This document shows positions 13,379 to 20,055 of a stretch of 21,248 nt of DNA, piece by piece (position 1 is the stretch's first letter; the number at the start of each line of letters is the position of its first letter). The notes under the pieces were generated by a model. That model ran no database searches and was not told the origin of the DNA. It was given only the letters and a program-made list of their open reading frames with translations. The DNA lies in assembly GCA_021850505.1 (NCBI GenBank), contig JAJZLW010000120.1, positions 1-21,248 of the forward strand, given 5' to 3'. This DNA is from Thermoplasmata archaeon (GTDB taxonomy: Archaea; Thermoplasmatota; Thermoplasmata; Thermoplasmatales; Thermoplasmataceae). A program made the translations under genes and the position numbers.

Positions 13379-14062
13379 ATGCCCAACAAGGGATTCCTGC
13401 GAAGGCTACTGGTATTAGGGGAGAGGCAGGCCCTCCAGGATCTTATTGTATACACAGAGCTGGGGCAGAAAGCAACTGAGATCCTCAAAAAACAGTTATC
13501 CTCAATGCAGATGGATCAGACAGGTCTGATATCTGAGGTAAGATCAATCGAAAAGAAGGGTGATGATCTCACACTTGCGCTTAAATCAGAGATTACGCAG
13601 GGTGCCGTTAATTCGACCCTACTGGGTCATCTGCTAAATCTTGTTGAAACATGCGATGACATCCTCGATCGATCCCTTTACATTTCTAGAGAAATAATCA
13701 GGATGTCACATTTCCTGAAATCCGCAGAAGAATATTCAGATTATGTAGTAACAGAGGTCTATCCCAGGTTCATCAAGATGCTTGATATCAACAGTCAGGC
13801 CCTTGGTACCCTGAAGCAGATGCTGCAGGCCAATGGTTTAGAAGAACTTAACCAGAACAGGGGAAAAATTGAACGCTTCGAGGAGAGCGTTGACGATATC
13901 AAGGATGACATAATAGACCGGGTATATACAGATGCGAAAAACCTTCACTACCTGGTCTTTACGCACATATTGAATATGGTGCACAGGATCGATGATCTCC
14001 TTGATGACTGCGAGGACGCATCTGATTACGTAATTACTGTTTCTAATTCAGTGAACCGCTGA
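13379..14062 (+). CDS. DUF47 PhoU-like protein partnering a PiT transporter
   Basis: This 227-residue all-helical protein belongs to the DUF47/PhoU-like family, thought to regulate PiT transporters. The pattern of acidic metal-binding positions is visible: EKKGDDLTLAL (about 58-68), TCDDILDRS, ESVDDIKDDIIDRVY and the C-terminal DDLLDDCEDASDY. PhoU family proteins bind multinuclear iron or zinc clusters through such residues. The stop TGA is directly followed by the ATG of the PiT gene, so the two are translated from one message. An AT-rich promoter region lies about 30 bases upstream of the ATG. Confidence 0.9.
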   Translation: MPNKGFLRRLLVLGERQALQDLIVYTELGQKATEILKKQLSSMQMDQTGLISEVRSIEKKGDDLTLALKSEITQGAVNSTLLGHLLNLVETCDDILDRSLYISREIIRMSHFLKSAEEYSDYVVTEVYPRFIKMLDINSQALGTLKQMLQANGLEELNQNRGKIERFEESVDDIKDDIIDRVYTDAKNLHYLVFTHILNMVHRIDDLLDDCEDASDYVITVSNSVNR

Positions 14063-14965
14063 ATGCATCTTCTAACTTTTTTAGAGGTCGTATTGATCTT
14101 CCTGCTTTCTCTGTTTGTATCAGGAAATAACCTGTCTGCAGCCGTTGGGACACTTATCGGTTCAAGAATTATCAGCCGAATTGGTGGCACCATGATAGGA
14201 ATGATCGGCTTCATAACGGGCTTTGCCTTGCAGGGCAAATCCATGGAAGGAGCTGCTCACAGCCTTTTTCCAGCTCCAGAATATTATGTTGTTCTCCTGC
14301 TCCTTGTTGTAATAGCGATTTTCATAATTGCACAGATACTGAAATCACCTCTATCGCTTTCCATGGCACTTGTTGGAACGGCGATTGGCATCTCACTGAG
14401 ACTTGGCCTGAACCTAAATTTCGGATACGTTTACTTCCTGGTTCTAATATGGGTGATATCACCCATGCTCGCTATAGCTGGGTCGTTCGCTGTCAACAGG
14501 TACCTGGGCAAAGTACATCTTGACAAAACATGGAACATGACACTCGTCCTGAAGCTTCTGCTGCTGATCATCTCTTTCTTTACCGCATATACAATCGGCA
14601 GTAATACGATAGGGCTCATGGCTGCATTCGCAGGTTTTTCCATATATACAGAAATTGCAGTGCTTTCAGGAATTATACTGGGCTCACTTTTCCTGAGCAA
14701 GGGAGTTTTAAAAAGAGTTGGCGAGGATATGTATTCAATGAGATATTTCAATGCCCTGACATCTCTCGCAGTTTCTTCAATAATGGTTGAAGCTGCAACG
14801 CTTTTCTCCATTCCTCTTTCAAGTACTCAGGCACTTACGTCAAGTGTTTTTGGAGCTGGCCTTTCATACAGATACAAAGCACTGTTTCTCAAACCATATC
14901 TTATAGTTGTTCTGACCTGGGTGATTTCACCTCTAACAGGTTTGATTATTGGCTATATAATATAG
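14063..14965 (+). CDS. PiT-family inorganic phosphate (anion) permease
   Basis: This is a 300-residue membrane permease with eight to nine hydrophobic segments and the inverted-repeat layout of PiT transporters. Each half has a degenerate GANDVANA signature: SGNNLSAAVG (20-29) and IGSNTIG (178-184), with Asn23 and Thr182 at the usual Asp. Each half also has a segment equivalent to the STTH motif: PLSLSMALVGTAIG in the first and PLSSTQALTSSVFGAGLS in the second. It is shorter than most PiT proteins. The start ATG abuts the stop of the DUF47 gene, its usual partner. Phosphate is the most likely substrate, but sulfate or another anion is possible given the altered motifs. Confidence 0.88.
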   Translation: MHLLTFLEVVLIFLLSLFVSGNNLSAAVGTLIGSRIISRIGGTMIGMIGFITGFALQGKSMEGAAHSLFPAPEYYVVLLLLVVIAIFIIAQILKSPLSLSMALVGTAIGISLRLGLNLNFGYVYFLVLIWVISPMLAIAGSFAVNRYLGKVHLDKTWNMTLVLKLLLLIISFFTAYTIGSNTIGLMAAFAGFSIYTEIAVLSGIILGSLFLSKGVLKRVGEDMYSMRYFNALTSLAVSSIMVEAATLFSIPLSSTQALTSSVFGAGLSYRYKALFLKPYLIVVLTWVISPLTGLIIGYII

Positions 14966-15005: not shown

Positions 15006-15356
15006 TTACGAGTTCCCGTCGTTTAATAGAGCTCCAGCATTTTCTGCAAGCTTCTGGATACCCACTTTTATATTCTCTTCCACCTTGTTACCGGCACCCC
15101 ATCTTATATTGAGGAGACCAGAACCACCACCAACCCTGCCAAAATCAACCTTTGTCTCTCTTCCATCATAAAATGCAGAAAGGAAAAACCCGATCGTGTC
15201 GTTGGATCTGAAAAAAAACTTTGATCCTGTGGCAATAAACAATTCTGACTGGCCACTTGAATAGATTTTTGAAAAATCTATTGAACCGACGGCATTCTGG
15301 AAAACACCTGCAATTTCCTGTCCGTTTAGTTTTGTTGATACTGTTAGCGACATCAT
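15006..15356 (-). CDS. Small DUF6054-like protein of unknown function
   Basis: The product is a 116-residue soluble protein with no signal or membrane segment. It is beta-rich in the first 80 residues and helical at the end. The segment GFFLSAFYDGRETKVDFGRV, followed by GGGSGLLNIRWGAGN, recalls DUF6054-type proteins (a strand, a Gly-rich turn, then a WGA motif). That resemblance is from memory and tentative. The start is the first of two ATG codons; a minus-strand TATA-like TCTTTAAA lies about 27 bases upstream of it, so it probably has its own promoter although the HPP gene ends only 24 bases away on the same strand. Confidence 0.7.
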   Translation of the reverse strand: MMSLTVSTKLNGQEIAGVFQNAVGSIDFSKIYSSGQSELFIATGSKFFFRSNDTIGFFLSAFYDGRETKVDFGRVGGGSGLLNIRWGAGNKVEENIKVGIQKLAENAGALLNDGNS

Positions 15357-16320: not shown

Positions 16321-19300
16321 ATGAAGAAGGGCAGTGCAATATTAGTGATTTTTTTATTCCTGCTATCAACGTTAACGTATTCATCTCTTGTTTATTCGAA
16401 TAGCTTGCCTGCAAGCACAAATTTCTATTATTCCCCTCTCAGTTCATCAGGCTCCTTTGGGGGCTCTGTTACTATTAACGCGAATGGCTCACTCTTTGCC
16501 GGGACCTCGTTTTATGCAGAAAATAATATAAACGCATCTGGGGTCGTCAGGCTTTCTGGTAATACCTACTGTTTAGAAGAATCAATAAATGAAACCCTAA
16601 CGATACATAAGAGCAACTCCATTTTTAATGGAAAAAACTTTACTGTCGGAGGCACCTGTTCTGGAACTTATGATATAAACGTGCTTTGCGTAAATAATGA
16701 TACAATTGAGGCATTCCATACGAATACCAGCGCTTTAGGAGTGCATATATTATCATCACATAATGTCATTATAAACTGGATAACTTTAACGAATGTTTAT
16801 ATCGGCATATGCCCGAAGGATTCAAGTAACCTTTTGGTAGAAAATTCTACCTTTCCAGATTCTTATTACGATGCAGCAGGTTTCATCAACACGGATCAAT
16901 TCAATACAAATGTCTCTGTAATAAATAACAGGATCTGTATTTCTGGCAGCGTTTATGCTACCAGAGCAATCGACATTGAAAGCAATAATTCTAAAGCAAT
17001 TAACAACACAATTATCTCAACATCGACTGGCACTGGGTGTAACACTGGTATTTACGTATTCTGCTCCACAAATACCGTGGTCAAAGGTAATTATTTAAAA
17101 GGCCAGGATTTATTTGGAATTTATGTTTTGAATGATAATTATTTGAATGTTACTGATAATTATATTAACACGACGAAACCCCCACTCTATTTATGTTCAT
17201 CTGAAAACCTTAACGTTTCGGAAAACACAATCATCGAAAACGGCCAACCCGACAATGTGACCGGTGATCATAATGTTTCAATTTATAAAACAAGCTTTGT
17301 TAGTAATCCATGCAGCATCAGTTTGAACCTGATCGATTCCAGCAACGTTCTCATTTCTAATATGGATTTTAACCAAACTGTTATTTGTATCAATAAAGCG
17401 CAGTCTCTCACAATTTCAAACTCAAAATTTGCAGGCTCCTTATTCACCCCCGGGCATTTGTCTGTCGCCAACTCAAATGGAATTTATCTTTCTAAAGATG
17501 AATTCAACTGTTCAAATTTGATCTATTCTAACAATGATGAATGCTCGTTCATAAACAATAGTACATTTAACGATCTGTTTCATGGTATAGAGATTGAAGG
17601 CGCAAATAGTGGTATGCATGTATCATCATCGATTTTTACTGGTCCTTGCGGACTTGATTTTTGTCCCGGCTCAAATACACAAAACGTTTTGATATCCAAA
17701 AACCTTTTTTCTTTGATATCAGGAGTCGGAGTTAGAGTGCAGTCATCATTATCAACAACCTTCAAGTTTGCTTCAGTGACAGGTAATAAATTCTTTGCGG
17801 CAAACGATTCATGCTTCGGTGCCGGTCTCTATTTGGAAGGGGTAACTACTCAGGACCTTAATATTGCTGAAAATACCTTTGTCAACATAAGCCTTCCAGT
17901 GTATGTCTGTTTTGTCAAAGGCACCACCATCTCCGTTAGCAATAATACCCTCATTAATACAACCGGTTGTAATTCGCCTGTCCCCGATGCTTCCGGCATA
18001 AATGTTATTTCTCTTAAATGCGAATTAACATCTGTTCAAATAACAGGAAACGTGATCAAAAATGAGGGTTATCATGGCATTTGTCTTTATGGGGCTGTAA
18101 TAGGGGATGTGAACCTTAATACTGTGAATAATGTCGGAATGCAATCAAAATTCCAGCATACCGAGTCGGCAATATATATTAGCGAATCTTCATTTGTTCA
18201 AATATCGGAAAACAATATTTTGTTCCCATCTGGTAGTTCACAGGATGGCATCTCACTTATTTTTGCGCAAAATGATAAAGTTACTGAAAATTCAATTTTA
18301 AACGGCTCAGATGGAATTCATCTGAAGTACTTCTGCAACTCAACTGTCAGTGATAATTACATTTATGGTGGCACCAATAGTTTGGAGGTCGGAAAAAACA
18401 GTTATAATTTCACTGTCGAAGGAAACTCGATTATTAATTCCTCCACATCAGTCTCTATTAAATGCGCTCTCATTGGGCAAATCCACTCCAATACAATCTC
18501 TGGCAGCAAAAATTTTGCAGTTGATATATTGGATTCCAGAGACATTACATTCTATCACAACAATTTCATCAATGGTAACACAAACAATGTAACGATCGTA
18601 TCGTCTACTTCAATAATCTGGAATCTTTCACTACCCGTTGGAGGCAACTACTGGAGTAACTACACCTACGGAGGATTGAACGGGATCGGGACTGTCCCTT
18701 ACGATGTTTCAGGATCATATTATGACTATTTGCCACTGACCAAAGCCTGGTCTTCATACTCCGTTATTTTCAAGGAAGATGGATTGCCAGCTGGCACGAC
18801 CTGGATGGTAAATTTTGGATCCACATCAGGTGTTTCTTCTTCTCAGATTTTAACTTTTCCGCAAATTGCTGCCCTTGATAGCGTTGTCAACTATTCGGTC
18901 CCATCAATATATGGTTACGTGTCTTCGGCACCTTCGGGATCCATAAAGCTGACCGGGCAAAATCTCACGATCTACGTGCAATTTAAACCTTATCTATCAA
19001 ATGTATCCATCACAGAATCAGGTAAACCCGCCGGTTCATTCTGGGTTATCTCAATAGGCGGATCAACTTTCTCGTCCAATTCCAATTTAATAACATTCAA
19101 TATTTCAAATGGAAGTTATGCATATTCGATATCTTCTGAGGTAGGATTTTCGATTACAGGATCGATCAATGTGAGTGGCAGCACAGTTTTGAATATTGAA
19201 TTCCCATCTTACTACAATGTGACTTTTGTTGAAAAAGGGCTCCCATCAGGAACACCCTGGTTTATTTATTATAATTCCTATGCATTTAATTCGACATCTT

Positions 19301-20055
19301 CTGACCTTAAGCTTGAATTAGTTTCTGGAAACTATTCTATTTCTGCTTCCGGGCCATCCGGATATTCAGTATCTCTTCAAACATCGCATATATCCGTCAC
19401 AAATGAAAACTCAACCATATTAGTGCTCTTTAAGAACGAAAGCAATTTCATTGTAGAATCATATACGGTTTCGTTTAACTCTCTTGGAAAACCATCCAGT
19501 TCTTATTGGTCGGTGCAATTCAACGCTTCAGTTATTAGTTCCACAGGTTCCATTATAAACTTTACAGCGAAAAACGGAACCTATGATTATTTCATAAACT
19601 CATCTGTATTTTTCGAAAATTCAGGTTACGTCAAAGTCGCAGGTAAAAACATTACCGTGAACATTCAGTTTACACAGGTTTATACTGTATACGTAAATGA
19701 AACCGGACTTACAGACGGCTCTGCATGGACTCTCTTCTTCAACGGCACTTCTTATCATACTTCAACAAGTTCCATTACAATTATAGCAGTTTCAGGGAAT
19801 TACAGTGTAGCTGCTTCCGGACCTTCTGGATACACTGTGACAATAAAACAGCCTTTCGTTGTGGTACATGGAAGCAGCGTTCAGTTCAATGTCAGTTTTG
19901 CTCTAATAACAAACTCTTCAAAAACAGCTATTAAGCCCGCATCAGGAATATCCCTTGAGTCGGTTGCTATAGGTTTGGTTTCAGGGGTCGCTGTGGGCGT
20001 TCTATCTTATGCTGGGTTAAGTTTGTTTAGATCAAACAGGAAGAGAAGAACATGA
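16321..20055 (+). CDS. Large surface-anchored beta-helix protein with alternating C-terminal repeats
   Basis: This 1244-residue protein starts with a signal peptide (MKKGSAILVIFLFLLSTLTY, cleavage near 26-31). Residues about 80-790 form a right-handed parallel beta-helix of NosD/PbH1 type, with repeated hxhxxN strand-turn units. It closes with the segment FYHNNFIN and GGNYWSNYT, ending YDYLPL, common at the end of NosD-like domains. All 21 cysteines lie in this part (C84 to C715). Five beta repeats of 73-84 residues follow, starting near 813, 891, 964, 1048 and 1121; each opens with a strand then G(L/K)P-x-G-x-x-W. The C-terminus is a membrane helix (about 1211-1235) followed by RSNRKRRT, anchoring the protein with its bulk outside. 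Many N-x-S/T sequons suggest glycosylation. Polysaccharide binding or cleavage, adhesion or a coat role are possible; no catalytic residues were identified. Confidence 0.92.
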   Translation: MKKGSAILVIFLFLLSTLTYSSLVYSNSLPASTNFYYSPLSSSGSFGGSVTINANGSLFAGTSFYAENNINASGVVRLSGNTYCLEESINETLTIHKSNSIFNGKNFTVGGTCSGTYDINVLCVNNDTIEAFHTNTSALGVHILSSHNVIINWITLTNVYIGICPKDSSNLLVENSTFPDSYYDAAGFINTDQFNTNVSVINNRICISGSVYATRAIDIESNNSKAINNTIISTSTGTGCNTGIYVFCSTNTVVKGNYLKGQDLFGIYVLNDNYLNVTDNYINTTKPPLYLCSSENLNVSENTIIENGQPDNVTGDHNVSIYKTSFVSNPCSISLNLIDSSNVLISNMDFNQTVICINKAQSLTISNSKFAGSLFTPGHLSVANSNGIYLSKDEFNCSNLIYSNNDECSFINNSTFNDLFHGIEIEGANSGMHVSSSIFTGPCGLDFCPGSNTQNVLISKNLFSLISGVGVRVQSSLSTTFKFASVTGNKFFAANDSCFGAGLYLEGVTTQDLNIAENTFVNISLPVYVCFVKGTTISVSNNTLINTTGCNSPVPDASGINVISLKCELTSVQITGNVIKNEGYHGICLYGAVIGDVNLNTVNNVGMQSKFQHTESAIYISESSFVQISENNILFPSGSSQDGISLIFAQNDKVTENSILNGSDGIHLKYFCNSTVSDNYIYGGTNSLEVGKNSYNFTVEGNSIINSSTSVSIKCALIGQIHSNTISGSKNFAVDILDSRDITFYHNNFINGNTNNVTIVSSTSIIWNLSLPVGGNYWSNYTYGGLNGIGTVPYDVSGSYYDYLPLTKAWSSYSVIFKEDGLPAGTTWMVNFGSTSGVSSSQILTFPQIAALDSVVNYSVPSIYGYVSSAPSGSIKLTGQNLTIYVQFKPYLSNVSITESGKPAGSFWVISIGGSTFSSNSNLITFNISNGSYAYSISSEVGFSITGSINVSGSTVLNIEFPSYYNVTFVEKGLPSGTPWFIYYNSYAFNSTSSDLKLELVSGNYSISASGPSGYSVSLQTSHISVTNENSTILVLFKNESNFIVESYTVSFNSLGKPSSSYWSVQFNASVISSTGSIINFTAKNGTYDYFINSSVFFENSGYVKVAGKNITVNIQFTQVYTVYVNETGLTDGSAWTLFFNGTSYHTSTSSITIIAVSGNYSVAASGPSGYTVTIKQPFVVVHGSSVQFNVSFALITNSSKTAIKPASGISLESVAIGLVSGVAVGVLSYAGLSLFRSNRKRRT
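18757..19920 (+). repeat. Five tandem protein repeats in an A-B-A-B-A order
   Basis: Within the surface protein, five units begin at bases 18757, 18991, 19210, 19462 and 19681. Units 1, 3 and 5 carry the GL(P/T) form (FKEDGLPAGTTW, FVEKGLPSGTPW, VNETGLTDGSAW) and units 3 and 5 share VSGNYS followed by ASGPSGY. Units 2 and 4 carry GKP (ITESGKPAGSFW, FNSLGKPSSSYW) and NG(S/T)Y(A/D)Y. The units are diverged at base level, so they are old. Such repeats are common in Thermoplasmatales surface proteins and thermopsin-like proteases. Confidence 0.85.

Follow-up and report, generated by a model that had tools for sequence, protein, structure and literature searches.

A lineage-specific stripe of cysteines along the cleft face of a predicted surface beta-helix from the Thermoplasmatales

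Right-handed parallel beta-helix proteins, archaeal members included (PF13229, PF05048), have in common with the protein described here their fold, coils of the hxhxxN type, an Asn at T2 and a frequent Tyr at G3. For a beta-helix alginate lyase, the excerpted text of PMC6796002 describes a cleft made by the outer surfaces of PB1, T1 and T3, and in PL6 enzymes PB1 is said, in an excerpt of PMC6879350, to contain the active site; the same excerpt assigns Cys135 and Cys169 of BcelPL6 to the inner Asn ladder. Precedent for a beta-solenoid rich in cysteine comes from ChloroIBP, which the portion of PMC4838330 used here describes as a model that gathers 15 Cys on a single side, 14 of them predicted to be in disulfides, with gel shifts supporting the bonding. 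Surface thiols have also been proposed for Acidithiobacillus (PMC6524610 and PMC1142338, both cited from partial text). Judged by titles and the openings of abstracts, we found no description in the literature of an archaeal beta-helix whose PB1 carries outward Cys.

The protein and its cysteines

In the window, the whole stretch of 21,248 nucleotides that was analysed from a Thermoplasmata archaeon, positions 16321-20055 of the plus strand form a single open reading frame of 1244 residues. Its product would be a secreted-type surface protein, going by the reading frame, the Pfam matches and the sequence itself, and runs from a hydrophobic N-terminus through a beta-helix and five GLPxGxxW-type repeats to a hydrophobic stretch with a basic tail; signal, anchor and repeats were read from the sequence by eye, with no predictor. 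It belongs to the beta-helix fold by Pfam, where Beta_helix (PF13229) scores 66.8 bits against a gathering cut-off of 25.9 and PF05048 scores 53.9 against 23.6, both above. It scores below the cut-off for NosD (TIGR04247, PDB 7osf; 52.6 bits against 300), although above that of the broader PF05048, and no nos gene (nosZ, nosF or nosY) was found among the 14 other open reading frames of the window, seven of which were compared with Pfam and seven with NCBIfam (33 mechanical reading frames in all). A PDB sequence search with the 1244-residue protein gave no match at E <= 0.01. We assigned 26 coils by hand, from residue 118 to about 750; the helix together with the region before coil 1 (16570-18588, plus strand) holds all 21 Cys. 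The protein is probably a surface beta-helix, anchored in the membrane and belonging to a Thermoplasmatales clade, its fold being predicted, and the kinship of the host suggests an acidophile.

Several features of the protein and its surroundings may be recorded alongside. The 1244 residues contain 51 N-glycosylation-type sequons. The five C-terminal repeats (18754-19920, plus strand, bounds approximate and set by eye) are without Cys and match no Pfam family at E <= 0.001; a profile that includes them finds matches in 292 of 400 genomes from the class, and of the matches listed most fall in the repeats, and they are a widespread surface repeat, missed by Pfam here. Upstream, a PhoU-like gene (PhoU_div) adjoins a PHO4 phosphate transporter gene on the same strand (13379-14965), and a minus-strand reading frame of 116 residues (15006-15356) weakly matches phrog_25410, of unknown function (E 1.6e-5). 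By its formate-tetrahydrofolate ligase, the window is nearest, among 77 family genomes, to G075 (92% and 91% over two pieces).

The first-pass annotation had placed every cysteine between residues 84 and 715 (16570-18465), with none in residues 716-1244, and had quoted eight cysteine motifs; the restriction holds and all eight motifs are present in the reading frame. The cysteines are residues 84, 113, 123, 164, 206, 240, 248, 292, 331, 356, 397, 408, 443, 448, 498, 530, 550, 567, 588, 672 and 715, and they make up 3.3% of residues 84-715 (21/632) against 0.61% (25/4115) in the 14 other reading frames. The picture given there of an archaeal surface-type beta-helix, with cysteines restricted to the beta-helical half, is borne out, and several cysteines do end a short strand ahead of an hxhxxN strand, unlike the arrangement in common beta-helices.

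Register statistics for the window concern the 19 Cys inside labelled coils, as Cys84 and Cys113 precede coil 1. By hand register nine of these, more than chance would give, fall at G3, G5 or G6, all encoded on the plus strand. Those at G3 are Cys164 (coil 3, 16810-16812; outward on PB1, and Asp in the aligned relative L020), Cys356 (coil 11, 17386-17388) and Cys588 (coil 20, 18082-18084); those at G5 are Cys292 (coil 8, 17194-17196; outward on PB1, and Cys in L020 also), Cys448 (coil 15, 17662-17664) and Cys530 (coil 18, 17908-17910); and those at G6 are Cys123 (coil 1, 16687-16689; the automatic register places the first coil differently), Cys248 (coil 6, 17062-17064) and Cys715 (coil 25, 18463-18465). 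The cysteines of the eight quoted motifs divide among G3 (164, 356), G5 (292, 530), G6 (248, 715) and turn T1 (567, 672). Only one of the 19 lies in N-5 to N+3, where 7.0 are expected. A role for the cysteines as core residues was considered and rejected: none of the 19 is at an inward position (G2, G4, N-5, N-3 or N+2; 3.9 expected), and ten family members have none at N-5, N-3, N0 or N+2. These position groups were picked after the window had been seen, and the relatives serve as the test.

One face of the helix and many positions

For the relatives we used an automatic coil finder in which Cys scores nothing at any position. Ten family members with 91 Cys have 17 at G3, 24 at G5 and 10 at G6 (3.8 expected at each), while G2 and G4 are below expectation (2 and 3). 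The eight divergent members have 83 Cys in all, of which 45 occupy G3/G5/G6, the outward-facing or turn positions of sheet PB1, which make up 12.3% of slots (P 6e-20), and five are in PB2-T2-PB3, which makes up 37% (P 5e-11), these P values assuming independent Cys; 25, about 30%, are in T3 or T1. The bias at G3/G5/G6 is present in each of the eight alone (P <= 0.017; the window has 8/20 by this register), and it is stable at score cut-offs 1 to 6 and on omitting any one member. When motifs are counted directly, with no coil finder, positions 3, 5 and 6 hold 14 Cys in 47 motifs from the eight representatives. The register agrees with DSSP of two models, and exposure is deduced from it, G3 and G5 pointing outward by strand alternation. 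Relatives found later with L063 as query (P0090-P0097) have 16 of 25 Cys at G3/G5/G6 (P 2e-9), or 13 of 22 without P0090, which is 91% identical to the already used L002; none of their Cys is in PB2-T2-PB3, and P0092, P0096 and P0097 have no Cys. Since P0098 is identical to L020, P0082 identical to L063 and P0089 99.6% identical to L062, these three and P0090 bring no fresh evidence.

The background shows the opposite pattern. It comprises 72 rows with a Pfam beta-helix domain, 71 of them giving coils, and leaves out the relative P0006 as well as P0013, P0015, P0016 and P0018, the latter four being without such a domain. Of the 493 Cys counted here, G3/G5/G6, with 12.7% of slots, have 33; Cys is enriched 2.7-fold at N-5, 2.5-fold at N0 and 2.0-fold at N+2, depleted to 0.3 at G5 and G6, and as expected at G3. 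None of 49 background proteins with at least four Cys is enriched at G3/G5/G6 at P < 0.05 (drawn from a background that still included P0013, P0015, P0016 and P0018), and the motif count made without the coil finder yields 3 Cys at positions 3, 5 and 6 in 254 motifs. In 47 other beta-helix reading frames, some from outside the Thermoplasmata, those positions hold one Cys in 197 motifs and hold Tyr 44, 20 and 22 times, respectively; by register, 5 of their 73 Cys are at G3/G5/G6. As separate observations, the 2820-residue Thermoplasmata beta-helix L014 (plus strand) has 15 labelled Cys, eight in the core and none in the stripe, the reverse of the window family, and the Cys content of exported proteins, from only three usable frames of ten (the other seven being off-frame or fragments), is 2/893 (L037) and 2/656 (L038) in Cys-bearing genomes and 12/1135 (L036) in G004.

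Given that PB1, T1 and T3 form the cleft in the lyases, as far as the excerpts cited above describe it, the family cysteines would be on the cleft side of the helix. The statistics give good support to a Cys stripe, specific to this lineage, along the cleft face of a surface beta-helix. One could suppose that this cleft binds or acts on carbohydrate, as those of AlgE, PL6 and tailspikes do, and that its cysteines are incidental. In fold comparison many of the best structural neighbours of the helix are indeed polysaccharide-cleft proteins, and the face is rich in Tyr; however, a common fold shows no function, and Cys positions on the face are unconserved even at 72-78% identity. We consider this explanation very unlikely.

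The register idea of the first-pass annotation survives in part: the bias to one helix face is real and is kept in relatives, but there is no single column. The 19 Cys of the window scatter over at least nine registers, and the largest class holds three (G3, G5 and G6 with three each), as chance would give (P 0.57). Nor was the stacked row of thiols upheld, as no adjacent coils of the window share a Cys register (0.4 expected) and 12 family members show four such cases against 3.7 expected. An ordered ladder, in which thiols stacked at 4.5-5 angstrom hold metal clusters or conduct electrons, can point to the one-face bias and to those four cases of neighbouring Cys in one column, yet, with column sharing between neighbouring coils at the chance level, there is no support for an unbroken thiol wire or an ordered row of metal. 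Free spacing, the lack of pairing (see below) and conservation of the face instead of the site likewise argue against it, and we regard it as extremely improbable.

Turnover, tyrosine exchange and pairing

In a tree of 38 rows, all 14 rows labelled Cys-bearing fall inside one clade of 20 (support 100/99), together with six Cys-poor rows (L101 and P0008 with 0 Cys, P0006 with 1, L049 and L067 with 2, L066 with 3). The tree needs five changes of label, at least three of them forced; as the label was assigned after counting, any contrast of labelled with unlabelled rows is in part built in. Two Cys-rich paralogues, L001:5872-9087 and L020:565-4152, share a 77.8-kb contig (G001:C62), each close to a different end, and sit on separate branches.

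Individual sites turn over quickly. Compared with P0001, which is 98.7% identical, the window differs by C550Y, C567G and Y619C (Cys conservation 0.93); with P0002 (86% identity) conservation is 0.90, with four changes. At column 619 the window has Tyr, whereas P0001, P0002 and L020 have Cys. L062 and L063, at 72.5% helix identity, keep four Cys columns and change ten (conservation 0.44); L021 and L065, at 78% identity, keep three and change six, five of these being Cys/Tyr (0.50). Across P0082-P0089, mean conservation is 0.70 for Cys against 0.88 for Tyr, 0.90 for Ser and 0.93 for Asn, and of 20 columns with Cys in some member two have it in all. Constancy of the cysteines among homologues, which the ladder idea had called for, is contradicted position by position: Tyr, Glu, Asp, Ser, Val, Phe or Arg stand at Cys positions in homologues. 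Conserved Cys sites were rejected, only Cys206 and Cys292 aligning with Cys in L020. The helix face is conserved and the individual Cys positions are not.

Part of the Cys bias follows Tyr. In the eight divergent members the ratio of Cys to Tyr is 45:112 in the stripe against 38:165 at all other sites (odds ratio 1.74, P 0.03); T1 and T3 together with N-6 have 26:98, no different from the stripe ratio (P 0.17), and the exposed Tyr positions of PB2 and PB3 have 5:53, which does differ (P 0.0018). One alternative is tolerated drift, whereby Tyr on a Tyr-rich exposed face becomes Cys by a single transition, harmlessly in this clade and with no thiol function. The frequency of Tyr as the exchange partner of Cys, the fast turnover of sites and the Cys-poor rows within the same clade all fit such drift. 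It would have to accommodate the 47 other beta-helices, which keep Tyr at these positions and yet have that single Cys, and the exposed Tyr positions of PB2 and PB3, which are so rarely Cys. Against it, too, the Cys count in P0082-P0089 is held at 7-13 while sites change, though shared ancestry also narrows that range.

The other serious rival is a disulfide-stapled cleft, in which many of the cysteines pair across loops or neighbouring coils and stiffen the cleft side. It has a precedent in ChloroIBP, as partially cited above, and would suit the share of Cys found in T3 or T1. Furthermore, Cys550 (loop T3) and Cys567 (turn T1; 17968-18021 for the two, plus strand) are both present in P0002 and both gone in P0001, and this joint loss is the sole hint of a linked pair. 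Pairing otherwise left no trace in the counts: (i) stripe Cys of adjacent coils pair 12 times against 12.1 expected in 12 family members; (ii) for all Cys of the 12 proteins, same-coil pairs number 15 against 24.9 expected, fewer than chance; (iii) adjacent-coil pairs number 45 against 51 expected; and (iv) sites in P0082-P0089 change without visible partners. A search for three extracytoplasmic factors, VKOR, DsbD_TM and Thioredoxin_4, gave zero matches in the 77 family genomes, a good number of which are drafts, compared with 3, 10 and 9 of 14 control genomes, respectively. This fits free thiols without proving them; if disulfides do form, they would do so without these three known extracytoplasmic factors. 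We judge stapling and harmless drift each rather unlikely taken singly, neither being ahead of the other.

Thiols on a cleft face and their relation to known systems

We tentatively favor, with somewhat less than even confidence, the possibility that dispersed and mostly unpaired thiols on the Tyr-rich cleft face act as a multivalent sticky surface. The external PB1 face and its flanking T1 and T3 turns would be decorated with Cys, as a rule at most one in each coil, at sites that point outward or lie in turns; most stripe thiols would be exposed and unpaired and might act jointly on a soft metal, sulfur, a metal sulfide or another thiol-reactive partner, so that number and face would outweigh exact positions. 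What the computation itself shows is the predicted fold and the register, a preference for one face that recurs in relatives at other positions, and the lack of any sign of pairing. A bolder version holds that this Thermoplasmatales clade turned the substrate cleft of a beta-helix into a multivalent field of free thiols able to capture or activate zero-valent sulfur, or to bind sulfide minerals or soft metals, with only face and number under selection; we think this improbable, and the sulfur role is suggested by analogy.

No partner gene common to the relatives' loci was found among nine proteins scanned at five loci. A link to anaerobic life was considered and set aside, COX1 being present in 67 of the 77 family genomes (65 over the cut-off); among the eight Cys-bearing genomes, six have a strong heme-copper oxidase COX1, G076 has one below the cut-off and G075 has none. 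The coil-register method, combined with a background control, offers a simple search for functional faces in other repeat proteins.

Relative to known systems, the family departs from other PF13229 and PF05048 members in where its Cys go: in background helices they are mainly in the core and T1 and are depleted at G5 and G6, whereas in this clade they are on the binding face, and the face is kept while positions drift. The inner-ladder cysteines of BcelPL6, as excerpted, resemble the background pattern and not the window family. AlgE4/AlgE6, PsAly and PL6 are beta-helices too, the lyases having a PB1/T1/T3 cleft or a PB1 active site in the cited excerpts (PMC6796002, PMC6879350), but they have conserved cleft residues, and the comparison is by fold alone. 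The ice-binding beta-solenoid ChloroIBP resembles the window protein in having many cysteines on a single side; its disulfides are backed by gel shifts and prediction in the portion of PMC4838330 used here, whereas the window family is without sign of pairing. The surface thiols proposed for Acidithiobacillus are bacterial, and their likeness to those of the window protein is one of analogy only. If the thiols here are free, they would be of the exposed type proposed for the contact of acidophiles with sulfur and minerals, encoded by one gene, and a field of them would give the surface thiols that have long been postulated in acidophiles using sulfur a concrete candidate among archaea.
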